DNA of 11,362 nucleotides from Comamonadaceae bacterium (lineage in GTDB: Bacteria; Pseudomonadota; Gammaproteobacteria; Burkholderiales; Burkholderiaceae). This document shows, one piece after another, positions 49 to 10,922 of the stretch; positions within the stretch are counted from its first letter, which is position 1; each line of letters opens with the position of its first letter. The position numbers and the translations under genes were made by a program. Below the pieces are notes generated by a model. The model had not been told where the DNA came from and searched no databases. It saw nothing but the letters and a program-made list of their open reading frames with translations. The DNA is taken from NCBI GenBank assembly GCA_947455875.1, contig CANGSD010000011.1, forward strand, positions 1 to 11,362. The letters are read 5' to 3'.

Positions 49-1005
49 TCACCCCACCTTCACAAATTGCCGCGCCAGCATGATCACCACAGGACCCAGC
101 AGGACGGTGAGCAGAGCGGGGAAGACGCAGAAGATCAGTGGGAAGAGGAGTTTGACGGGGAGTTTGGCGGCGGCTTCTTCGGCGCGCAGGCGACGTTGGG
201 TGCGCAGGGCGTCGGCATAAACCGTGAGCGATTCAGACACGCTGGTGCCAAAACGGTCGGCCTGTATGAGCATGGAGACCAGGGCGTCGATATCTTTGAG
301 GCCCACACGCTGCGACAGGTTGCGCAGCGCTTCGGCCCGCGATGCGCCAGCCCGCAGGGCCAGTCCGGTGAGGGCGAATTCTTCGGACAGCACAGGTCGG
401 GCGTGGCGCATTTCGCGTCCTACGCGTTCGATCGCCGCGTCCAGCCCGAGGCCGGCTTGTACGCACAGCCGCAGCAGATCCAGCGCGTCCGGAAAGGCAT
501 GCATCAGTTCCCGTTGTCGGTGCCGGATGCGCAGACTGAGTACCGCCTCGGGCAGGTAGTAGCCTGCGGCGGCGGCCGCAACGACGAGGACCATGCGCAG
601 CATGGTGTTGGCGGGCCAGCCTTGGGCATTGAGCACGCTCCAGATCAGGGCGGGCAGCAGCACGGTGAGCAGGGTTTTGCTGACGAAATAAATCTGCCGC
701 GCAACGGGTGAGCGCCAGCCCGCGTGCCCAAAGCGCAGGCGCAGCGCAGAGGGGGTGTCGCCTTCGCCGCCCGACAGGCCCGCTGTCCAGGGGCCGATCC
801 ACGTCAGGGCCGCCAACAGTCGGGCTTCGGCTCGTTGCCAGGCGCTGGCCTGCACCGCTGGGCCGCCGTCCTGGGCGTTCAGTTCGGTCAGGCGGGCCAG
901 CCGGTCGCGGCCTGGGTCGGGCAGCCAACGGCTGATCACCGCCAGGCTGAGCGTCAGGACCACAGCGAATACGAGTGCCGAAAAAATCAGGGTGGCAGAG
1001 GTCAT
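49..1005 (-). CDS. tadC: TadC, inner-membrane platform protein of the Flp pilus
   Basis: A 318-aa polytopic membrane protein of the GspF/T2SSF superfamily. With TadB it should form the inner-membrane platform on which the TadA ATPase acts. Hydrophobic segments lie near residues 5-25, 107-125 and 136-155, with a C-terminal pair near 284-312. The cytoplasmic T2SSF domain (about 170-300) opens with FPDALDLLRLCVQAGLGLDA, a family hallmark, and carries EEAAAKLPVKLLFPLIF before the last helices. I chose ATG at 1003-1005. The frame is open to 1134, but the extra 43 residues are polar, read as antisense of tadB, and would overlap tadB by 100 bp. The gene follows tadB after 29 bp and is the last of the operon here. 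No strong Shine-Dalgarno is visible. Confidence 0.93.
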   Translation of the reverse strand: MTSATLIFSALVFAVVLTLSLAVISRWLPDPGRDRLARLTELNAQDGGPAVQASAWQRAEARLLAALTWIGPWTAGLSGGEGDTPSALRLRFGHAGWRSPVARQIYFVSKTLLTVLLPALIWSVLNAQGWPANTMLRMVLVVAAAAAGYYLPEAVLSLRIRHRQRELMHAFPDALDLLRLCVQAGLGLDAAIERVGREMRHARPVLSEEFALTGLALRAGASRAEALRNLSQRVGLKDIDALVSMLIQADRFGTSVSESLTVYADALRTQRRLRAEEAAAKLPVKLLFPLIFCVFPALLTVLLGPVVIMLARQFVKVG

Positions 1006-1034
1006 GGGTGGCAGGGCGAGTGGTTGGAGAACGA

Positions 1035-2018
1035 TCAAGCGCGGATCTGGATCAGTCGCCACATCCACAGGATGCCGATGGCCATCAGAGTCAGCGAGAC
1101 ATACATCCACTGCAAGCCCATGGGGTCGGTCCACAGGCGCGAGATGAAGCCAGGGTTCATCACGCCCAGGAGGGCAGCCAGCGCAAACGGCAGAAGCGAT
1201 AGGACGACGGCCGAGATTCGCCCTTCGGCCGAGAGCACGCGCACGGTACCCGCGATTTTCTGGCGTTCGCGGATCAGGTGTGCGGTGTTTCTCAGAATCT
1301 CGGCCAGGTTGCCGCCCGTCTCGCTTTGAATGACGACGGCCACCGCAAAGTAGCGCATATCGTCGCTGGCCACCCGCATGGCCAAGCTTTGTAGGGCCTG
1401 CGCGGTGCTGATGCCAAAGTTGATTTCCTCAAACACCGCACGCAGCTCGATTGACAGGGGGGGCGGACAGTCTTTTGCCGCCACATGCAAGGCGCTGGTG
1501 AAGGCATGCCCTGCTTGCATGGAGCGGGCCATCAGTTCAAGCGCGTCGGGCAGGGCCTGGCTGATCAGGGTCATGCGTCGGGCGCGGCGTTGTTGCAAGA
1601 AGGCGATCAACAGCAGCGGCCCCAGCACCGCCACCACTAGACTCAGCAGCACCGGCCAGCCCAGGCTGGCTCCGAGCGCCAAGGCCACGAGCACCAGGGC
1701 TGCAGCCAGTAACAAGGCCTGCGCCAGGCTGAGTGCCAGGCCGGTTTGCAGCAAAAAATGGTCGAATGCGGCTGCGCCGGGCAGGGTCTGCAGCCAGCGC
1801 TCGGCCCAGTCCCATTGGCTCAGCATTCGCCTGGGACGCAGTTTGAGCGCGGGTTCGGCCATTTCATCTGGGCTGTTGAGCGCCGCCGCTTGCAGTCTTT
1901 GCGCCAGGGCTTGTTGGCGCGGGTCCAGGTGTTGCCGCCACAGTCCGTACAGGCTCCAGACCAGAGCGCTGATGCTCAGGGCAGCCAGCACGGCAATCGT
2001 CCAAAAGGGTGTGCTCAT
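1035..2018 (-). CDS. tadB: TadB, inner-membrane platform protein of the Flp pilus
   Basis: A 327-aa integral membrane protein, partner of TadC and a second GspF-like platform subunit. It has an N-terminal helix at about residues 7-27, a polar stretch, a hydrophobic pair at about 95-140, and a T2SSF domain at about 150-285. That domain opens with ALPDALELMARSMQAGHAF and contains QSETGGNLAEILRN at 231-244. C-terminal helices lie at about 268-288 and 302-322. The ATG at 2016-2018 is only 3 bp after the tadA stop. A GGAG lies about 9 nt upstream, inside the end of tadA, so the two genes are probably translationally coupled. The length is normal for the family. Confidence 0.95.
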   Translation of the reverse strand: MSTPFWTIAVLAALSISALVWSLYGLWRQHLDPRQQALAQRLQAAALNSPDEMAEPALKLRPRRMLSQWDWAERWLQTLPGAAAFDHFLLQTGLALSLAQALLLAAALVLVALALGASLGWPVLLSLVVAVLGPLLLIAFLQQRRARRMTLISQALPDALELMARSMQAGHAFTSALHVAAKDCPPPLSIELRAVFEEINFGISTAQALQSLAMRVASDDMRYFAVAVVIQSETGGNLAEILRNTAHLIRERQKIAGTVRVLSAEGRISAVVLSLLPFALAALLGVMNPGFISRLWTDPMGLQWMYVSLTLMAIGILWMWRLIQIRA

Positions 2019-2021
2019 GGC

Positions 2022-3458
2022 TCAACTCCAGCGCTGGGCCGATTCGAACAGGTCATCGCTGAGCACAATGCCGCGGGTCACCAGGCGCTGTGCAAATTTA
2101 GGTCGGATGCCGGTCGCCATAAAGTGACCCTGCACGCAGCCATCGGGGTTCAGGCCGGTTTGCTCGAATCGGAAGATCTCTTGCATGCTGATGACGTCGC
2201 CCTCGATGCCAGTGATCTCTTGCAGGCTGGTGATCTTGCGTTGCCCATCCGACAGGCGAGAGACCTGAATCACCACCGACAGAGCTGCGGCAATTTGCTG
2301 GCGCAGGGCGCGCGATTCGGCCTTCAGACCTGTCATGCCCAGCATGTGTTCGAGCCGGGTGAGTGCGTCGCGCGGGGAGTTCGCGTGAATGGTGGTCATG
2401 GAGCCGTCGTGTCCCGTGTTCATGGCCTGCAGCATGTCCAGTACTTCGCCCCCACGCACCTCGCCCATGATGATGCGATCAGGCCGCATGCGCAGGCTGT
2501 TGCGAAGCAGATCACGCTGCGAGATTTCGCCTTTGCCCTCGATGTTGGGTGGCCGCGTCTCCAGGCGCACCACATGGGGCTGCTGAAGTTGGAGCTCGGC
2601 CGCGTCTTCGATGGTGATGATGCGCTCGTCACCCGGGATGCTGGCCGACATGACATTGAGCAGCGTGGTCTTGCCGCTGCCCGTACCGCCCGAGACGAGC
2701 ACATTCAGACGGGCCCGCACCAGTCCCTGGAGCAGCTCGGCCATGCCCGCGGTGAGCGAGCCCATGCTGATGAGATCGTCCACGCTGAAGGGCACGACAG
2801 CAAAGCGGCGGATCGACAGCAAGGGCCCGTCCATGGCCAGGGGCGCGATTACCGCGTTCACGCGCGAACCGTCGGGCAGCCGCGCATCCACCATGGGGCT
2901 CATCTCGTCCACCCGCCGCCCGATGCGCGAGACGATGCGGTCGATCACCCGCAGCAAGTGGGCTTCGCTGTCAAACTGCACATCGGTATGCACGATCTTG
3001 CCGTGCCGCTCGGCATAGACCTGAAACGGGCCGTTGACCAGGATGTCTGACACAGAGGGGTCAGACAGCAAGGACTCGATGGGACCCAGGCCCAGCATTT
3101 CATCCTGAATGGCCTGGATGATCAGGCGGTGCTCGGTTTCATTGAGTGCCAGTTTGTGCGTGGAAATCAGCTCTTCGGTAAGAGCCTTGAGTTCGGTGCG
3201 CAGACGATCGGGGGGCATGCTCTCCATGCGCTGCCAGTCCATGCGCGACAGGATCTCCTGGTGGATGCCCGTCTTGATCTCGTCCAGGCGAAGGCCTTGT
3301 GCGCTGGGGCTGGGCGCCAATTCAGCGGGCGAAACGGGTTTCGGAGCGGGGGTGAGGGGCCAGGGGTCGGACGCATGGTTGAGCTTCACGAGGGCAGGGC
3401 CCAACAGCGCGGTCGCATGACTGCCGTTTTCAAACTGGTCGCGCAGTTTCGGGTTCAA
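2022..3458 (-). CDS. tadA: TadA/CpaF, Flp pilus assembly ATPase (TTG start)
   Basis: A 478-aa secretion ATPase of the VirB11/PulE (type II/IV) superfamily that hydrolyses ATP to drive pilus assembly at the cytoplasmic face of the TadB/TadC platform. Landmarks: Walker [10 protein letters not shown] (257-265), Asp box [13 protein letters not shown] (279-291), Walker B region RIIMGEVRG (328-336) and His box [12 protein letters not shown] (349-360). The N-terminal domain at 105-220 includes [12 protein letters not shown] and [19 protein letters not shown] Pro/Ala-rich region (33-55) precedes it. The start is TTG at 3456-3458: AGGAG lies 6 nt upstream, a stop is in frame just upstream, and the next in-frame ATG is about 72 codons in. 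An out-of-frame ATG at 3460-3462 is only 2 nt from the AGGAG. A 55-bp gap separates it from tadZ. Confidence 0.96.
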
Positions 3459-3513
3459 ACATCTCTCCTGTGGAGGTCACAACGCAAGGTGGGAGGCGGG
3501 CGGTTCCATCGGT

Positions 3514-4767
3514 TCAGGCGGTCTGGCCCATCCAGCGCTGAATCCAGTGGCGTTGTTTATGGGGAGCGCTTTCCAGCAGTGCGCTTGCAGCCTCCCGCAA
3601 TGCGTCGATCACGGCGTTGTGGTCGTTCACCGCTGACAGGGGCTGACCGATATGCAGGGACTCTTCCACCCATTCGGGACCGCTCGGAATGCTTTGCTGC
3701 ACCTTCAGGCCGACGGCTTCCTCCAGCTCGGTCAGGCTGACCCAGCCTCTGGGTTTGTAGCGGTTGACCAGCAGGCGAAGCTTGGTTTCTTTCAAACCCA
3801 AGGCGCGCATGATGTTCACTAGGCGCTGAGCGTCGCGTACATCGGGGGTCTGGCTTTGCATCACGATATAGACCACATCCGCCATGTCCAACACCTTGAG
3901 CGTCAAGGCGTTCAGGTTACGCGGCAGGTCGACCACCACATGCTCGTGCAGACTTTGCACCAGAGCCAAGACTTTTTCGATGTCTTGAGGGCTGATGGCC
4001 ATGGCATTTTCCAGCGAGTGGGGCGCGGCCAGCAGATTCAGCCGGGGTGTCACCGCGTGCAGGCAACTCGCCAGCAGCTGCACATCGAGCCTGTCAATCT
4101 GCCGCGTCAAGTCGCCCAGGCTGTGTTTGTTGGTTCCACTGCCCAGGTAGAAAGCGGCGTCGCCGCACTGCAGGTCCAGGTCGACAAAGGCGCATTTCTT
4201 GCCAAATTCATCGGCCATGATGTGAGCCATATTGGCCGCCACAAAGCTGGTGCCGTTACCGCCTTTGCAGCCCATGAAAGCCACCAGTCGACCGGGGTGA
4301 TCTTGGGCAGTGGGGGTGGAGGCCGCCGCTGACGTGTTCCCTGTGCCTGTTCCGTTGTTGGGCCCTGTTGAGGTCGGGGCGCGATCGCTCCAGCGCTGCA
4401 GGGTCTGCGCCAGCTCGGCCGGGTTGATCGGGAGCGGAATGACTTCGCGTACGCCGGCTCGCATGGCCCGGGTCAGCAGGGCTTTGCTGTTGTCTTCACT
4501 CAATAGCAGAACGTTCAATTGGGGTCGCTGTCGCAGCCAGCCATCGAGTACGGCCAGGTCGTCGTTGGCTGCGCCCGCCATGCCGATAGGACTGTCCAGC
4601 AGGACGATGGTGCCCGGCGGAGCATCGTCTAGGGCCTGTAGCGATGCGCGCAAATTGCTGCCGGGTGTGCGCAGCCTGGCGCTGTCCACGGACAGCTTGT
4701 TTTGTTGCTGGCTGCTGCGCAGCGAGGCCAGAAGGGTTTCGTTGGAGGCGATCACATGGATGGACAT
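3514..4767 (-). CDS. tadZ: TadZ/CpaE, receiver-like and ParA/MinD-like pilus localisation protein
   Basis: A 417-aa cytoplasmic protein that, in the family, places the Tad machine at a cell site. Residues 1-130 resemble a degenerate response-regulator receiver: TIVLLDSPIG (53-62) around the usual phospho-acceptor strand, then VLLLSEDNSKALLTRAMRAG and EVIPLPI. A low-complexity Thr/Gly/Ala linker (131-158) leads to a MinD/ParA ATPase domain with deviant Walker A GCKGGNGTS (166-174), FVDLDLQCGD (194-203) and the Walker B-like VVVDLPRNL (277-285). The signature lysine K168 is kept, but the second P-loop lysine is replaced by T173, as in other TadZ/CpaE proteins. I chose ATG at 4765-4767: AAAGG lies about 7 nt upstream and the gap to the lipoprotein gene is 10 bp. 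The frame extends to 4797, but those residues look unlike protein and overlap the gene before. Confidence 0.94.
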   Translation of the reverse strand: MSIHVIASNETLLASLRSSQQQNKLSVDSARLRTPGSNLRASLQALDDAPPGTIVLLDSPIGMAGAANDDLAVLDGWLRQRPQLNVLLLSEDNSKALLTRAMRAGVREVIPLPINPAELAQTLQRWSDRAPTSTGPNNGTGTGNTSAAASTPTAQDHPGRLVAFMGCKGGNGTSFVAANMAHIMADEFGKKCAFVDLDLQCGDAAFYLGSGTNKHSLGDLTRQIDRLDVQLLASCLHAVTPRLNLLAAPHSLENAMAISPQDIEKVLALVQSLHEHVVVDLPRNLNALTLKVLDMADVVYIVMQSQTPDVRDAQRLVNIMRALGLKETKLRLLVNRYKPRGWVSLTELEEAVGLKVQQSIPSGPEWVEESLHIGQPLSAVNDHNAVIDALREAASALLESAPHKQRHWIQRWMGQTA

Positions 4768-4777
4768 GGCAAGCCTT

Positions 4778-5065
4778 TCAAGGTGCGCTGACCGCACCGA
4801 TACCGATGTTGAAAACGGAGACCGGTGCGGGCGGGGTCTGGAAACTTTGCTGGTACCGCGTCACAGCGCCCAGGGCGGATGCGCCATCGATTTCGCGGTC
4901 GGTCTGTGGCGCGCCAGGAGCCAGCAGTCGTTGCTGGGTCTGGGCGCTTTGTACGGCCAGACCAAATTTTTGGTCGACCAAAGTGGGGGGGGTATCGCAG
5001 GCGGCCAGGGCGAGGCTCAGGCCGACGATGCTCAGGTAGCGAAGAGGTTGGGGTAGTAGCTTCAT
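4778..5065 (-). CDS. small lipoprotein of the tad locus, in the rcpB/cpaD position
   Basis: A 95-aa protein with a clear lipoprotein signal: a hydrophobic stretch at 11-22 ending in lipobox LAAC, so the lipidated residue should be C23. The mature part, about 73 residues, is mainly polar, with QSAQTQQRLLAPGAP and a C-terminal FNIGIGAVSAP. I recognise no domain. Residue +2 after the cysteine is Asp, which in E. coli favours retention in the inner membrane, although such rules vary between species. Its ATG overlaps the rcpA stop (ATGA), so it is coupled to the secretin gene. By position it could stand in for RcpB or CpaD as a secretin-associated lipoprotein, but it is far shorter and I see no sequence match. 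The lipoprotein call is firm; the role is inferred. Confidence 0.82.
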   Translation of the reverse strand: MKLLPQPLRYLSIVGLSLALAACDTPPTLVDQKFGLAVQSAQTQQRLLAPGAPQTDREIDGASALGAVTRYQQSFQTPPAPVSVFNIGIGAVSAP

Positions 5066-6531
5066 GGTGTGGAGGGCGGTGTTGCCCCGGGCTGGCTTTC
5101 GGGCTGGGTCTGGGGTCGGGTCTCTGGCTGTGCGGGGTTGGGGGCTGTGGGCGCAGGCTCGGGCGGTTTTCCTTCGAGCTGGCCGTTCCAGAAGTACTCG
5201 CGGCGGGTGGGCGGGATGTAGCTGTCGGTCGGCAGCGCGTAGTCAGGCGGCAAGACGCGGGCCAGGCGCGGGGTCACCACAAACAGCAGCTCGGACTTGT
5301 CGGTCTGGAAAGCGGTGCTGCGAAACAAGGCCCCCAGAATCGGCAGCTCACCCAGAACTGGAAAGGCTTTGATGGTCTGAGTGACGTTGTTCTTGACCAG
5401 CCCACCAATGGCAAAGCTCTCGCCATCGCGCAGCTGCACCGTCGTAGAGGCACGCCGCGTCGTGATGCTGGGCAACAAGCTGCTTTGGTCACCCAAGCCT
5501 TTGACGATGGTGCCCACTTGCGACAGCTCCGAGACCTCAGGCGTCACACGCAAGTTGATCAGCCCGTCTTCCAGCACGGTGGGTAAGAAACGCAAACCTA
5601 CGCCGAACTCCTTTTCTTCCAGCGTGATGGTGGTGCCGCCCGTGGCGCTGGTCCGGGGAATGGGGATGTAGATCTTGCCGCCCGCTAAAAATGAACCCTC
5701 CTGTCCGCTGACGGCCGTGATGGTGGGCTCGGCCAGTATCTTCACCAGGCCTTTCTTCATCTCGGCGGTCAGCGTGACGGTGGTCAGTCCGTTGGCACGC
5801 GCGGCGGTGAGCGCGGTCGATCCTTCGCTGAGCAATTGCGAGAGCAGGCTGACCGAGGTGTTACCGAAGCTGCGGGTCAGGTTCAAGTCCACCCCCAGCT
5901 CGTCGAGCAGGGTTTTGGAAACCTCGGCCACCTTGACTTCAAGCATGACCTGCTGCGCGCCGTGCACACGCAGCAGGTTGATGACTTTCTTGTTCCCGTT
6001 GAAAGCCTCGGTCAAGGCCATGAGGCGCTGCACTTTCATGCCGTCGCTCACGCGACCGCTCAGCACCAGGGTATCGGCCACGCTGTCGACGCGCAGATTC
6101 TCAGCGCTGGGCACGTACTCGCGAAGTTTGGCGTAGAGGCTGTCGGTGTCGGATCCGACACTGATGTCGCGCAAGGTGGTGCTGCCCTCGGCCGTCCAGA
6201 CCAGCAGATTGGTATGGCCTGATTTTTTTCCCAGCAGGTAAATCTCGCGCGGGTTGATCAGCATCACATCGGCCACTTCGGGGTTGCCCACCGACAGACG
6301 CTCGGCGCTTTCGGGCAACTGCAGCAGCATGGACTTTCCGGCCGTCAGGCGCAGGGGCGGGGCGATGCGCACCGGGCCTTGGGTTTGCACTTCGGGCTTG
6401 CTCGACGATTTGGCTGCGCTGCGGGTCGCGTCAGAGGGAGAGGCAGCGGCAGAGGCTGCATGCGCCGCTTGAGACCCTACACAGGCGATGGACAAGACAA
6501 GGGACAGTGTGATGGGCGGGATGGCTCGCAT
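5062..6531 (-). CDS. rcpA: RcpA/CpaC, outer-membrane secretin of the Flp pilus
   Basis: A 489-aa secretin that should form the outer-membrane pore for the pilus. Domains: a Sec signal peptide with likely cleavage after AHA (about residue 25); an N-terminal pilus-secretin domain at about 58-125 (KSMLLQLPESAERLSVGNPEVADV, then INPREIYLLGKKSG); a BON-like segment at about 130-190; and a secretin core at about 255-420. The core includes KILAEPTITAVSGQEGSFLAGG and the hallmark PVLGELPILGALFRS (391-405), then LLFVVTPRL. A Pro/Gln/Thr-rich tail (455-489) is unusual and may be a periplasmic or surface extension. I chose ATG at 6529-6531 because it gives a canonical signal peptide and has a purine-rich AAAGAGAG upstream. 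A GTG at 6571-6573 that overlaps the rcpC stop would add 14 residues and is the alternative start. Confidence 0.95.
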   Translation of the reverse strand: MRAIPPITLSLVLSIACVGSQAAHAASAAASPSDATRSAAKSSSKPEVQTQGPVRIAPPLRLTAGKSMLLQLPESAERLSVGNPEVADVMLINPREIYLLGKKSGHTNLLVWTAEGSTTLRDISVGSDTDSLYAKLREYVPSAENLRVDSVADTLVLSGRVSDGMKVQRLMALTEAFNGNKKVINLLRVHGAQQVMLEVKVAEVSKTLLDELGVDLNLTRSFGNTSVSLLSQLLSEGSTALTAARANGLTTVTLTAEMKKGLVKILAEPTITAVSGQEGSFLAGGKIYIPIPRTSATGGTTITLEEKEFGVGLRFLPTVLEDGLINLRVTPEVSELSQVGTIVKGLGDQSSLLPSITTRRASTTVQLRDGESFAIGGLVKNNVTQTIKAFPVLGELPILGALFRSTAFQTDKSELLFVVTPRLARVLPPDYALPTDSYIPPTRREYFWNGQLEGKPPEPAPTAPNPAQPETRPQTQPESQPGATPPSTP

Positions 6532-6569
6532 GGGGCTCTCTTTGAAGGGGCAAACGGACAGGCTGGGGC

Positions 6570-7424
6570 TCACTCTCGCGACAGAGACAGGCCCCGGATG
6601 ACCTCCAACCGACTGGGTTCCGGTGCAGGCGGGGCTGGGGCTGGGGCTGCGGCGGCAGCCGGGGGCGCAGGGCGGGCAGCCCGCGGACGCGCCGGGGCAG
6701 GCTTGGCGGCAGAGCTCGCCACAACCGCAGCGGGCACCTGGGGCAGTAAGTCCAGCTTGCGCGAACCCGCTGTTTGCACCGGGATGATGTCGCTGTAGCT
6801 GCGCAGCACCAGCGACAAGGTGCCGACGCTGCGGGCCAGGTCGATCTGCTCGGCCTGTTGCGGGCTGACCTGCAAAGTCACGGCGTTGACCACACGGGGC
6901 TTGCTCTCGTTCGTGGACACGTCTTGCGCCACGGCCAGCACCCGGATGCGTTCGATGACGATCTTGGAGACGGGTTGATTTTCACCGTCAGGCATGTTGA
7001 CCATCACGTCCACAAAATTTCCGGGCAGCGCGAAACCGGCGACGCCCATGATTTCATTGACCTTCACGGTCACCGCACGTTGCCCAGGCGCGAGCACCGA
7101 GGACAGACCGCCTTTCTCGCCCTCCGCTGCGAGCTTGCTTTGCAGCAAGGGTTCGCCGCGCAGCACGGGCATGTGGATGACCCGACCGACCGCTTGGTCC
7201 AGCGTGGTCAAGGGGTCCTGAATGCCCGCAGCTTTAGGCCAAGCCAGGGTTTGCAGCATGTCCGGTTGCAGCCGGGTCCCCATTTGCAGATCGCGTTGGG
7301 CCACGATCACTTGCAAGGTGTTGGAAGCGCTTTGCTGTTGCAGCCAGATGGCCGCATAAGCAGCAGTCGCCAGGCCCAGCACCAAGGCCAGAAGAAGTGC
7401 ACCCAAGGGCCGAATGTTTCTCAT
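6570..7424 (-). CDS. rcpC: RcpC/CpaB, Flp pilus assembly protein with SAF domain
   Basis: A 284-aa periplasmic protein anchored by an uncleaved or signal-like N-terminal helix (about residues 7-29). The SAF-like domain (about 37-100) starts VIVAQRDLQMGTRLQPDML. The RcpC/CpaB core (about 110-228) includes LAPGQRAVTVKVNEIMGVAGFALPGN and VDVMVNMPDG, both typical of the family, and TLQVSPQQAEQIDLARSVGTLSLVLRS. The family works with the secretin. The tail (230-270) is a low-complexity Ala/Pro/Arg run, plausibly a flexible or envelope-spanning linker. The ATG at 7422-7424 has AAGGA about 9 nt upstream. The gene is 29 bp from tadV and its stop overlaps the alternative GTG start of rcpA. Confidence 0.94.
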   Translation of the reverse strand: MRNIRPLGALLLALVLGLATAAYAAIWLQQQSASNTLQVIVAQRDLQMGTRLQPDMLQTLAWPKAAGIQDPLTTLDQAVGRVIHMPVLRGEPLLQSKLAAEGEKGGLSSVLAPGQRAVTVKVNEIMGVAGFALPGNFVDVMVNMPDGENQPVSKIVIERIRVLAVAQDVSTNESKPRVVNAVTLQVSPQQAEQIDLARSVGTLSLVLRSYSDIIPVQTAGSRKLDLLPQVPAAVVASSAAKPAPARPRAARPAPPAAAAAPAPAPPAPEPSRLEVIRGLSLSRE

Positions 7425-7453
7425 GGAAGAAAGTCCTTGAAAGGCTCAGGAGT

Positions 7454-7996
7454 TCACGAAAAGGGCGACAGCTTGAGAACATGCACGGCAGTTCCCGCGC
7501 CAATCGCCAGGGCGTAGGGCATGCGTGTCGCGCTCAAGGGAAAGGTCGTGCGCTGCGCGCTCTGCCCGTCTGGGCGGCCACGCCACACGTGCGTCAAGCC
7601 TCTGCTCAGGTTGTTCAGCGTCTGGGTCAGTTGACCGCTGACTACAGCCCATGTGATGGACAGAAGGCCCCCAGCCAACAAGATCAGCACGCTGACCCAG
7701 AGCATGTCGGGATGACCCACAAAAAGGCCCGTGGCGGTGGCGAGCTTCACATCGCCAGCGCCTAAAGCCCGCAGCAGGTAGAGCACCAGAAAACCTAAAA
7801 AGCCCACCATGCCCCCCGCGAGCGCCGAACCCAGGCCGATGCCGTGTGGCGACAGTGAAAGCCCGATGGCCGTCAAGGAGCCCGACAACACCAGTGCGTT
7901 GGGAATGCGGCGCGTTGCGGTGTCGAGCCACATGGCCGCCAAAAGCATGGCGGCCAATGCGGCCAGATGTGTCCAGTCAAAAAGGCTCAGGGGCAT
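7454..7996 (-). CDS. tadV: TadV/CpaA, Flp prepilin peptidase
   Basis: A 180-aa membrane aspartic protease of the type IV prepilin peptidase (A24) family, of the short form lacking the methylase domain. It should cleave Flp and probably TadE after the glycine of their leader. Catalytic aspartates are visible: D25 in LDTATRRIPNAL, and D82 in the GxGD motif GAGDVK (79-84). Hydrophobic segments lie at about 10-24, 35-50, 56-77, 97-117 and 157-175. The C-terminal region TRMPYALAIGAG matches the usual end of the family. The ATG at 7994-7996 has only a weak Shine-Dalgarno, and a hairpin lies in the 47-bp gap from flp. Both features could lower its output relative to the pilin. Confidence 0.94.
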   Translation of the reverse strand: MPLSLFDWTHLAALAAMLLAAMWLDTATRRIPNALVLSGSLTAIGLSLSPHGIGLGSALAGGMVGFLGFLVLYLLRALGAGDVKLATATGLFVGHPDMLWVSVLILLAGGLLSITWAVVSGQLTQTLNNLSRGLTHVWRGRPDGQSAQRTTFPLSATRMPYALAIGAGTAVHVLKLSPFS

Positions 7997-8043: not shown

Positions 8044-8232
8044 TCAAGGCGTCAGAACGCCATCCAGCGTCGTCGACACCGTGTTGAATAAGTCATTGAT
8101 GGAACCGCCCAGAGCAGTGGCGCCGCCCACAATCGCCAGTGCGATCAGCGAGGCCAGCAGGCCATATTCAATGGCGGTTGCACCCTCTTCATCGGCCCAA
8201 AATGTCTTGAAAAATTGAGAAAAGTTTTTCAT
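8044..8232 (-). CDS. flp: Flp prepilin, major pilin of the type IVc pilus
   Basis: A 62-aa prepilin that is assembled into the Flp fibre. It has a 17-residue leader rich in Phe and Lys that ends in DEEG, with cleavage expected between G17 and A18. The mature protein begins ATAIEYGLLASLIALAIVGG, with Glu at +5 and the Flp-specific Tyr at +6, followed by a hydrophobic helix at about 25-41. The C-terminal part, about 20 residues, contains no Cys. The length is typical for Flp. The ATG at 8230-8232 has a GGAG 7 nt upstream, and that GGAG lies inside the small palindrome at 8238-8249. It is the first gene of the leftward operon, next to the divergent control region. Only one flp copy is present here. 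Confidence 0.97.
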   Translation of the reverse strand: MKNFSQFFKTFWADEEGATAIEYGLLASLIALAIVGGATALGGSINDLFNTVSTTLDGVLTP

Positions 8233-8237
8233 GTGCT

Positions 8238-8249
8238 AACTCCAGAGTT
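8238..8249 (-). promoter_or_regulatory. palindrome holding the flp ribosome binding site
   Basis: On the minus strand the sequence is AACTCTGGAGTT, a perfect palindrome whose right half contains the flp Shine-Dalgarno GGAG, 7 nt before the ATG. As RNA it could close a 4-bp stem with a CUGG loop, which is weak alone. Confidence 0.4.
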
Positions 8250-8383
8250 GAAAAGTGAGGGAGAGCTTCAAGCCTGTGGGTTCGCGCCACGCACCGGGGG
8301 TGTCTTCGTGTAGCGGCCATCGGGCTCTGCAGCGGTCCGGATGTCTCCAAACCGCCAGGCCACTTTAAAAAATTGGGCCGACT

Positions 8384-8410
8384 TGCACAGTGCGGTACAG
8401 CACCTAAGCA
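8384..8410 (+). repeat. direct repeat copy 1, candidate regulator site
   Basis: This 27-bp element starts TGCACAGTGCG and ends GCACCTAAGCA. It matches the element at 8434-8460 at 21 of 27 positions without gaps, exactly 50 bp apart. At its centre is the dyad GTGCGG-TA-CAGCAC (8390-8403), with one mismatch per half-site. The repeat is seen directly; a role as operator is inferred from its position between divergent genes. Confidence 0.65.
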
Positions 8411-8433
8411 TCGGTTTTGATGCCTGCAACGCA

Positions 8434-8460
8434 TGCGCAGTGCGCCAGCGCACCGAAGCA
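8434..8460 (+). repeat. direct repeat copy 2, candidate regulator site
   Basis: Second copy of the 27-bp element, starting TGCGCAGTGCG and ending GCACCGAAGCA. Its centre is a perfect dyad, GTGCGC-CA-GCGCAC (8440-8453), at the same offset as the imperfect dyad of copy 1. The perfect symmetry suggests a dimeric DNA-binding protein. Confidence 0.65.
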
Positions 8461-8528
8461 AGCCGCATGCATCTCTAAGGTCGGGTTCTCCCAATTGACC
8501 CCGTCGGACCCCGCTCAGGAGATTGCCC

Positions 8529-8984
8529 ATGACATGGCTTCAGGACCCCAAACGCCAGACCCGTAGGCGACCCAAGACGCAGATGCAGCGCGGTGCGGCT
8601 GCGGTCGAGTTCGCGCTCATCCTGCCCATCTTGCTCGCCTTGCTGGTGGGCGGTATTGATGCGAGCCTGGCTTTGTACGACAAGGCCGTGATCACCAATG
8701 CCAGCCGCGAAGGCGCGCGTGCGGGCATCGTGGCGCGCAATCCGCTACTGACCGATGAGCAAATCAGACAGGTGGTCCGCCAATACGCCCAAAGTGCGCT
8801 GGTCAGCTTTGGCGCCAGTCCGGTACAGCCCACCGTGCTCATTCAAAAAGGCAGCCTGGGCGGTGACCCCACGCTGCAGGTCACCGTGAGCTACACATTT
8901 CACGGCATAGGCCTGGGCAGCTTGTTCCAAAGCCTGGGCAGGCCCTGGGTGTTGCAGGCCAGCACCGTGATGGTTTACGAGTGA
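8529..8984 (+). CDS. tadE: TadE, pseudopilin-like protein of the Tad system
   Basis: A 151-aa TadE-family protein. The N-terminus is basic (KRQTRRRPKTQMQRG), followed by a type IV prepilin-like site: cleavage is expected between G22 and A23, and AAAVEF places Glu at +5 and Phe at +6. The membrane helix spans about 27-49 (EFALILPILLALLVGGIDAS), then comes the TadE hallmark ITNASREGARAGIV. In Aggregatibacter TadE is processed by TadV, so the same is likely here. I chose ATG at 8529-8531 because AGGAG is 7 nt upstream. A TTG at 8523 is in frame but only 1 nt from that AGGAG. The gene is transcribed away from flp and is followed at once by tadG. Confidence 0.93.
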   Translation: MTWLQDPKRQTRRRPKTQMQRGAAAVEFALILPILLALLVGGIDASLALYDKAVITNASREGARAGIVARNPLLTDEQIRQVVRQYAQSALVSFGASPVQPTVLIQKGSLGGDPTLQVTVSYTFHGIGLGSLFQSLGRPWVLQASTVMVYE

Positions 8985-10088: not shown

Positions 10089-10421
10089 TCAGGCGCCGAG
10101 GAGTCGACGCGCCAGAAGTGATTGCATGTCCCGACGCCCGTCGGCCACGACATACACCACGACATCACGCCCAATGACCCGGTAAATGAGTCGATAGGGC
10201 TTGAAGAAGACTTGGCGGTACTCCTTGATGCCGAGGGCCAGGAGCTCCCTGGGGTAGCTTCCCCGCTGTGGCATCACGGCCAGTTTTTCTGCAGCAGCCA
10301 TCAGGCTATCGAGCACATGATCCGCACGCAGGGGGCCATCAACTTCTGTGATGTAGTCGTGAATCGACTGAATGTCCTGCTCCGCACCTTGTGTGAGCAG
10401 GACCCGCAAGCGGGTCGCCAT
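10089..10421 (-). CDS. ParE/RelE-superfamily toxin of a type II toxin-antitoxin pair
   Basis: A 110-aa basic protein of the ParE/RelE fold. Family features: an N-terminal strand then AEQDIQSIHDYI, a central helix ending MPQRGSYPREL (50-60), then EYRQVFFKPYRLIYRVIGRDVVVYVVADGRRDMQSLLARRL. This matches the ParE-type pattern better than canonical mRNA-cutting RelE, so DNA gyrase is a plausible target; that is inferred from the family. The ATG at 10419-10421 overlaps the antitoxin stop by one base (TGATG) and lacks a good Shine-Dalgarno, so translation probably depends on the antitoxin gene. It converges on tadG with a 40-bp gap and no obvious terminator. Confidence 0.88.
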   Translation of the reverse strand: MATRLRVLLTQGAEQDIQSIHDYITEVDGPLRADHVLDSLMAAAEKLAVMPQRGSYPRELLALGIKEYRQVFFKPYRLIYRVIGRDVVVYVVADGRRDMQSLLARRLLGA

Positions 10422-10696
10422 CAGGACACGGATTTTTTGGACTTCAGTCGTGTGACCACATCGGCGATGGGTCTGAGCTTGCCCTGCTCAATTTCCTGGT
10501 TGCCCAGCGCCAGCAGCTTCAGCAGTGCGAGAGTCTCCTGGGTCTCCTCGAAACTGGCGACATCCTGAAGAACGGCCTTGGCCTCGCCGTTTTGCGTGAT
10601 GACAAACGGTTCACGCTGTTCGCCCAGAGAGGCCAAGACCTCGGCGGCATGCGCCTTGAGGTAGCTGATGGGTTTTACTTGAGATGAGTAACGCAT
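10421..10696 (-). CDS. Phd/YefM-family antitoxin
   Basis: A 91-aa antitoxin. The N-terminal half is the Phd/YefM DNA-binding domain: VKPISYLKAHAAEVLASL (7-24), then EPFVITQNGEAKAVLQDVASFEE. The C-terminal half (about 52-91) is a charged helical segment that in this family wraps and neutralises the toxin. I chose ATG at 10694-10696, with GGGAGG 6 nt upstream. The frame is open to 10840, but that extension runs through the promoter, the terminator and the tRNA. It is the first gene of the pair, which is the usual order for phd/yefM types, and it probably represses its own promoter at 10718-10738. Confidence 0.9.
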   Translation of the reverse strand: MRYSSQVKPISYLKAHAAEVLASLGEQREPFVITQNGEAKAVLQDVASFEETQETLALLKLLALGNQEIEQGKLRPIADVVTRLKSKKSVS

Positions 10697-10717
10697 GGAG
10701 GCCCTCCCGGAGGACCG

Positions 10718-10738
10718 AATATAGACCATAAAAGGTCT
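10718..10738 (-). promoter_or_regulatory. toxin-antitoxin promoter -10 box with overlapping operator dyad
   Basis: On the minus strand a TATATT (10718-10723) lies about 20 bp upstream of the antitoxin ATG and is a good -10 box. Overlapping its start is a perfect dyad, AGACC-N6-GGTCT (10723-10738), well placed for antitoxin binding. No strong -35 is visible 16-18 nt upstream; the nearest hexamers resemble CGAGAC or CCGAGA. Confidence 0.55.
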
Positions 10739-10764
10739 TGTCTCGGCACTGTGAGGGCGCCCAA

Positions 10765-10792
10765 GAAAAAGGCCTGGGAAACCCAGGCCTTT
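10765..10792 (-). terminator. rho-independent terminator of tRNA-Thr
   Basis: A perfect 11-bp stem, AAAGGCCTGGG (10768-10778) and CCCAGGCCTTT (10782-10792), with a 3-nt loop. On the minus strand it runs straight into TTTTTC. It begins 9 bp after the tRNA CCA end and insulates the toxin-antitoxin pair from tRNA transcription. On the plus strand the T-run is only three bases, so it should act mainly leftward. Confidence 0.93.
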
Positions 10793-10801
10793 GGAAAAAT
10801 G

Positions 10802-10877
10802 TGGTGCCGGAGAGATGAATCGAACACCCGACCTTCTCATTACGAATGAGCTGCTCTACCGACTGAGCTACACCGGC
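10802..10877 (-). tRNA. tRNA-Thr, anticodon CGU
   Basis: A 76-nt tRNA including encoded CCA. Acceptor GCCGGTG pairs with CTCCGGC except for a U6-U67 mismatch; D arm GCTC/GAGC; anticodon arm GCTCA-TTCGTAA-TGAGA, with anticodon CGU at 10842-10844; variable region AGGTC; T arm GGGTG-TTCGATT-CATCT with two G-U pairs. The anticodon arm, including the unpaired 27-43 position, has the same layout as E. coli thrW, which supports Thr identity. It is transcribed leftward from the -10 box at 10892-10897 to the terminator at 10765-10792. Confidence 0.97.
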
Positions 10878-10910: not shown

Positions 10911-10922
10911 CCCCCCCCCCCC
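10911..10922. repeat. run of 12 C (poly-G on the minus strand)
   Basis: A homopolymer of 12 C between the tRNA-Thr -10 box and the hairpin ahead of the synthetase gene. Tracts of this length are prone to slipped-strand length change and also to sequencing error. It sits where the tRNA -35 box would be, and about 80 bp upstream of the synthetase ATG. Confidence 0.8.

Follow-up and report, generated by a model that had tools for sequence, protein, structure and literature searches.

Divergent class II CRP/FNR-type promoters predicted between flp and tadE in a Comamonadaceae tad locus

The region between the pilin gene flp and tadE in the tad locus of a Comamonadaceae bacterium very probably contains, judging by its sequence and by related loci, a pair of divergent class II CRP/FNR-type activator-dependent promoters, one for the genes from flp to tadC and the other for tadE-tadG. 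In the analyzed stretch of DNA (the window, 11,362 nucleotides), the open reading frames and Pfam matches place flp leftward and tadE rightward, 296 bp apart; the control region between them is divergent, with nine genes running leftward on one side and tadE-tadG on the other. The leftward run, all on the minus strand, starts with flp (PF04964, 8044-8232) and continues with genes for a prepilin peptidase (7454-7996), CpaB/RcpC (6570-7424), a secretin (5062-6573), a small open reading frame without a Pfam match (4778-5065), a CpaE/TadZ-like protein (3514-4797), the TadA ATPase (2022-3458), TadB (1035-2018), and TadC (49-1134); from gene order and strand, the run downstream of flp (49-7996) is taken as a probable single operon. 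On the plus strand, tadE (PF07811, 8529-8984, ATG at 8529) is followed by a tadG-like gene (PF13400 and PF09977, 8981-10048). Past tadG there is a PhdYeFM antitoxin / ParE toxin pair (10089-10840), followed by a minus-strand tRNA-Thr gene (10802-10877) and, just past the latter, by a run of twelve C (10911-10922), possibly of variable length. In the closest relative, L001, an acetoacetyl-CoA-synthetase-like gene (so called from its likeness) comes after tadG, and no open reading frame of at least 130 amino acids is listed between the two.

Two 27-bp elements (8384-8410 and 8434-8460) lie between flp and tadE, as the original prediction had it, and direct comparison confirms their ungapped match at 21 of 27 positions, at a place (8384-8460) where a repeat search run with default parameters detected nothing. 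This is the top ungapped 27-mer match in the intergenic region; none of 1000 dinucleotide-preserving shuffles reached 21, the shuffle maximum being 20. The dyad ascribed to each element is present as well: the second is the perfect GTGCGC-CA-GCGCAC (8440-8453), whereas the first, GTGCGG-TA-CAGCAC (8390-8403), has five of six pairs. Both carry all six fixed bases of GTG-N8-CAC. The 27-mer pattern had no matches among viral contigs, and a plasmid search gave only three weak matches, each covering at most 16% of the query.

To define related regions, an alignment of 30 TadE proteins was used, which found 110 relatives in named genomes; the best 80 of these were considered. A minus-strand flp upstream of tadE was sought in 30 of the best 80 and was recognized automatically in 25. 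Direct reading of the frames showed that L003, L004, L019, L022, and L024, missed by the strict motif, also have a divergent flp. After exclusion of a distant arrangement with an 803-bp gap (L059) and of two near-duplicates (L015 and L021), the scan set comprised the window and 22 relatives, that is, 23 regions, mostly of the Limnohabitans type. When 19 regions were aligned, the short conserved blocks were the dyad, TAnnnT boxes flanking it on both sides, and, in the direction of flp, an inverted repeat.

The position of each dyad relative to the adjacent box is constant. In the window, the centres of the first dyad (8396.5) and of ACTTTA (8362-8367, minus strand), which reads TAAAGT towards flp, are 32.0 bp apart, as are those of the second dyad (8446.5) and of TAAGGT (8476-8481, plus strand), directed towards tadE. 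If these boxes are -10 elements at -12 to -7, both dyads are therefore centred at -41.5 with respect to the predicted starts. We scanned centre distances of 20-44 bp on both strands of the 23 regions. At a distance of 32, at least five of the six fixed bases were found in 22 of 23 regions on the tadE strand and in 22 of 23 on the flp strand, and all six in 16 and 12 regions, respectively; since most of the loci are related, these counts are not independent. The other distances gave from zero to two regions each, except 34 (11 on the tadE strand and four on the flp strand), where the excess is largely due to self-overlap of GTGTG. The two misses are slight shifts, to 31 bp for the tadE dyad of L038 and to 33 bp for the flp dyad of L008. 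Among 5000 shuffles of the window region, none had both composites (dyad plus -10 box) together, while the plus-strand composite alone occurred in four and the minus-strand one alone in two.

Outside the scan set, complete composites (6/6) were found in both directions in L003 and L004; in L237 and L024 the flp-directed composite is likewise complete, and the tadE-directed one has 5/6. The divergent flp-tadE regions L019 and L022 have one 5/6 match each and no pair, so the fixed geometry is not universal among divergent loci, and these two may be controlled differently. In L235 (genome G129), the tadE composite is present and no flp was recognized beside tadE. The original suggestions that operator-like dyads suited to a dimeric regulator are present, with GTG-N8-CAC conserved in related tad loci, and that a single factor may govern the two operons are supported.

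The distance between the two dyads behaves differently. In the 20 regions where both sites could be placed, it is 48-50 bp in 12 and 54, 63, 79-82, or 473 bp in the other eight, an approximately tenfold range (48-473 bp), while each dyad stays fixed to its own -10 box. What relatives retain is the dyad, the nG(A/T) after it, and the -10 box, whereas in the 19-region alignment conservation does not extend to the outer parts of the 27-mer. Conservation in related tad loci had been set beforehand as the test of the original prediction, and it holds for the dyads but not for the 27-mer flanks, nor for L019 and L022, which lack the paired composite. In the original prediction, the elements formed a direct-repeat pair about five helical turns apart, which a dimeric regulator could bind on one face of the DNA; taken as a model, this means cooperative binding with the spacing essential. 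Despite the 21/27 match in the window and the 48-50 bp spacing in the majority of regions, this model is highly improbable given the eight regions that keep both sites at other distances and the unconserved flanks, and the fixed 50-bp spacing was rejected. By sequence, the conserved unit is rather the GTG-N8-CAC dyad, which has CRP geometry, and the direct repeat is best regarded, because of the variable spacing and the unconserved flanks, as two similar putative operators, each tied to its own promoter. Thus a striking direct repeat can be a side effect of two operators that resemble one another, each anchored to its own promoter. The third site proposed at 8284-8296 (GCGCCACGCACCG) was also rejected: it falls within the predicted flp leader and lacks a GTG-N8-CAC dyad, and by eye this block is poorly conserved beyond the closest relatives.

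The promoter elements around the two dyads are similar. Operator 1 (8390-8403, minus strand) overlaps the -35 region of flp, CTGTGC (8385-8390, minus strand), and operator 2 (8440-8453, plus strand) overlaps that of tadE, CCGAAG (8453-8458, plus strand); the -10 boxes TAAAGT and TAAGGT described above correspond to TAnnnT in relatives. The tadE start is predicted from its -10 box at 8488 (plus strand), giving a 41-nt leader. In promoter orientation, the logos of both sites read GTG-N8-CAC-N-G-(A/T). The G two bases after CAC occurs in 20 of 22 flp sites (L005 left out) and in 20 of 21 tadE sites (L010 and L038 left out); the sites had been selected on the GTG and CAC columns, and not on the G column that follows. 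This G at -33 and the A/T at -32, constrained in both logos, coincide with the GA of TTGACA, and 17 bp separate the -35 region from the -10 box. Immediately before CAC, the tadE sites usually read C (20 of 21) and then G (15 of 21). A scan of 8200-8560 gave no consensus sigma-70 promoter, which is weak evidence, as shuffles average only 0.1. The dyad geometry, the centre near the predicted -41.5 over the -35 region, and the weak -35 combined with a recognizable TAnnnT -10 box correspond to the layout of class II CRP/FNR promoters, as far as sequence can define it. The -10 boxes, the CRP geometry, and the 5' hairpin of flp described below were no part of the original prediction.

Similar composites precede other genes. 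A search of four genomes for the pattern GTGN6CGCACCNAA gave 19 matches versus 23 in the control, hence no excess; the -10 box was therefore added to the pattern. The composite GTGN6CGCAC-N22-TANNNT was then sought in 27 genomes with the reversed pattern as control. Without nG(A/T), there were 80 matches versus 59 in the control, which is not a strong excess, and with nG(A/T), 69 versus 14. Coordinate reading showed 19 of the 69 to be tad promoters, leaving 50 elsewhere, many of them orthologous, versus 14; since nG(A/T) was chosen after the tad logos and the first match list had been seen, 50 versus 14 is the fairer figure. In 20 genomes of the family without this TadE or CRP-PAS (the candidate regulator discussed below), the nG(A/T) composite occurred nine times versus four in the control.

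The downstream genes were read at 15 of 30 composite loci, those with a plus-strand site, and seven of the names were checked with Pfam, the rest being given by likeness. They are three tadE, two CBS-domain, two BON-domain, two DUF4148, two LonB-like AAA, and one CRP-family gene, and three others. Orthologues of the CBS-domain gene, present in 14 of the 27 genomes, have a 6/6 composite at 32 bp in 11 cases, a 5/6 composite in one more, and none in two. For DUF4148, the best locus in each of 14 genomes has a composite in nine, four of these being of the CCAC type, which the search pattern would not select. The CBS gene itself was found in two of 200 genomes and so is uninformative as a test in genomes without CRP-PAS. 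Composites were also observed within a few kb of other CRP-family paralogues (L163 in G019:C61, G002:C12, G003:C8, G012:C79, G024:C69, and G025:C94), directly upstream of the paralogue gene in L163. This recurrence suggests that members of this CRP subfamily regulate themselves or one another.

The likely reader of the sites, as predicted from their sequence, is an activator of the CRP/FNR family, for which the best candidate is a tad-linked CRP-PAS protein or a paralogue from the same subfamily. Other potential readers are available, since the 12 genomes first searched contain 7-20 Crp-HTH matches each. Directly behind tadG in L011, from the cultured strain Limnohabitans sp. Rim28, a gene (L011:10694-12109) encodes a CRP-HTH protein whose C-terminal domain is PAS-like. 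It matches PF00027 (cNMP_binding) with 31.7 bits versus a cut-off of 27.5 and PF13545 (HTH_Crp_2) with 58.7 versus 27, and the C-terminal PAS match (PF00989) has 20.6 bits, under the cut-off of 22.6, with E 0.00047. A near-complete CRP-PAS gene occurs in 22 of the 27 genomes and fragments of it in three; G001 and G021 have none. The gene starts approximately 1.8 kb from the tadE promoter in six of the 27 (G007, G010, G016, G017, G022, and G023), and in seven more (G002, G003, G006, G008, G011, G014, and G018) it shares the contig at a distance of 9-21 kb. In L152 (G013:C82:30215-30742), a shortened CRP-PAS gene is situated approximately 3 kb from tadE on the same contig, its open frame beginning near the recognition helix. 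In a sample of 200 genomes of the family, CRP-PAS (E 1e-60) was found in three of the four genomes with this TadE (E 1e-15) and in none of the other 196. The chance of three of three falling among four of 200 is 4/1313400, in a sample of related genomes that includes G002 (the centre). The fourth TadE genome, without CRP-PAS, is G129, a 1.7-Mb assembly.

The recognition helix of CRP-PAS is VRRES(V/I)TQ, which retains the R-E pair of the CRP helix. The true starts of the CRP-PAS genes are uncertain, and no 6/6 site of their own was found from 250 bp before to 200 bp after the open-frame start in any of the 22. Genome G001, the closest to the window by TadE among the best 80 of 110 relatives, keeps both tad sites and has no CRP-PAS gene; because of this absence from the closest relative's assembly, CRP-PAS is put forward as an inferred candidate. 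Within the class II interpretation, there is a considerable, though less than even, chance that the reader is instead another CRP/FNR paralogue with a wider role. Together with G001, the same composite upstream of the CBS, DUF4148, BON, and LonB-like AAA genes and of one crp gene agrees with this variant, as does the (V/I)RRE start of the recognition helix, which is common to several CRP paralogues; the tracking of this tad locus by CRP-PAS, both in linkage and in the 200-genome sample, argues against it.

A CRP/FNR-type activator is not the only kind of protein that could occupy such sites. In P. aeruginosa, the pprB gene is linked to the tad locus. PprB is reported to be the regulator of a two-component system that acts on flp/tad genes, with GGCTAATAC as a putative recognition site at pprB (PMC6821963). 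The window would resemble these PprB-controlled promoters in having one regulator for the Tad pilus genes; PprB differs from the predicted reader in belonging to a two-component system and having a recognition sequence unlike the window sites. The dyads could accordingly serve a repressor or a dimeric regulator from outside the CRP family, for instance, a response regulator, as a site covering the -35 region can block polymerase and a known Tad regulator is of another type (PMC6821963). We consider this unlikely: the predicted -41.5 position is fixed on two promoters and at unrelated genes, the -35 elements are poor, and both the GTG-N8-CAC geometry and the co-occurrence with a CRP-family gene point to the activator-dependent promoters proposed here.

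The type of site is known in its geometry, which is that of a class II CRP/FNR operator, and its core differs from that of cAMP-CRP. The consensus of the cAMP-CRP regulon proper is TGTGA-N6-TCACA, with T next to CAC, from which the logo GTG-N8-CAC-N-G-W departs; unlike E. coli CRP sites, the window has the core GTGn6CGCACnG(A/T) and two such promoters back to back. As in the class II promoters of E. coli CRP and Herbaspirillum Fnr, the putative dimer site covers the -35 region, with a predicted centre of -41.5 here; class II CRP sites are centred at -41.5 in ChIP-exo data (PMC5957442), and the Fnr site of the Herbaspirillum fnr1 promoter at -42 (PMC5934665). No report of this operator was found in a literature search covering titles, abstract openings, and some passages, mostly from outside the subscription journals, and the literature searched yielded no paper on Limnohabitans tad pili, on flp-promoter regulators of the tad pilus, or on a stem-loop or mRNA stability of Flp pilin.

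The predicted start of flp, seven bases past the -10 box, is 8355, which is also the first base of a perfect hairpin with a 10-bp stem and a 4-nt loop (8332-8355, minus strand), so that the flp mRNA is predicted to begin with a 5'-terminal stem-loop. The hairpin energy is -15.8 kcal/mol, and none of 200 shuffles was as low. In 22 of 23 regions (not L020), the stem begins at +1 to +3, including regions of unrelated sequence such as L034. Since this hairpin begins at the predicted +1, it provides independent support for the promoter assignment. In the 14 of 23 regions with the same 24-nt layout, the covariation score is 0.385 versus 0.159 in shuffles and was reached by none of 500; 90% of cells are paired, versus at most 51% in slid versions, and 15 cells are changed on both sides versus 5.4 in shuffles. 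The number of pairs with a double change (five versus 3.8 in shuffles, reached by 116 of 500) does not stand out. The use of G-U pairs points to RNA. In E. coli, a 5'-terminal stem-loop stabilizes the ompA mRNA, the message of an abundant envelope protein. The flp hairpin, likewise strong, at or next to a predicted 5' end, and in the mRNA of an abundant envelope protein, likely protects its message by analogy; it differs from ompA in that its role is a prediction and in that Rfam gave no family match for the leader, only one chance match (E 0.92).

We propose that a CRP/FNR-family dimer would bind each GTG-N8-CAC dyad at -41.5 and contact RNA polymerase in the class II manner, the two sites acting independently at promoters with a weak -35 (G at -33 and A/T at -32), a 17-bp spacer, and a TAnnnT -10 box. 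In response to its presumed signal, it would activate, rather than repress, flp to tadC leftward and tadE-tadG rightward together. The most likely reader would be the tad-linked CRP-PAS or a paralogue of the same subfamily, and the flp transcript would begin with the 5'-terminal stem-loop, probably protecting the abundant pilin mRNA. Taken further, the system may be a dedicated Tad-pilus switch, in which CRP-PAS drives both class II promoters and a small stress-type regulon via GTGn6CGCACnGW, and the flp message carries a stabilizing hairpin at its predicted start; this fuller scheme is put forward tentatively, as somewhat short of an even chance.

Limnohabitans is an abundant freshwater genus, and Variovorax belongs to the same family as the window organism. 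The flp/tad locus of Variovorax is reported to be strongly downregulated in biofilms, and no regulator is named in the passages on this locus in that report (PMC7494200). The present analysis supplies two exact operators, two predicted transcription starts, a predicted regulon, and a ranked candidate regulator, all of which could be tested in cultured Limnohabitans.
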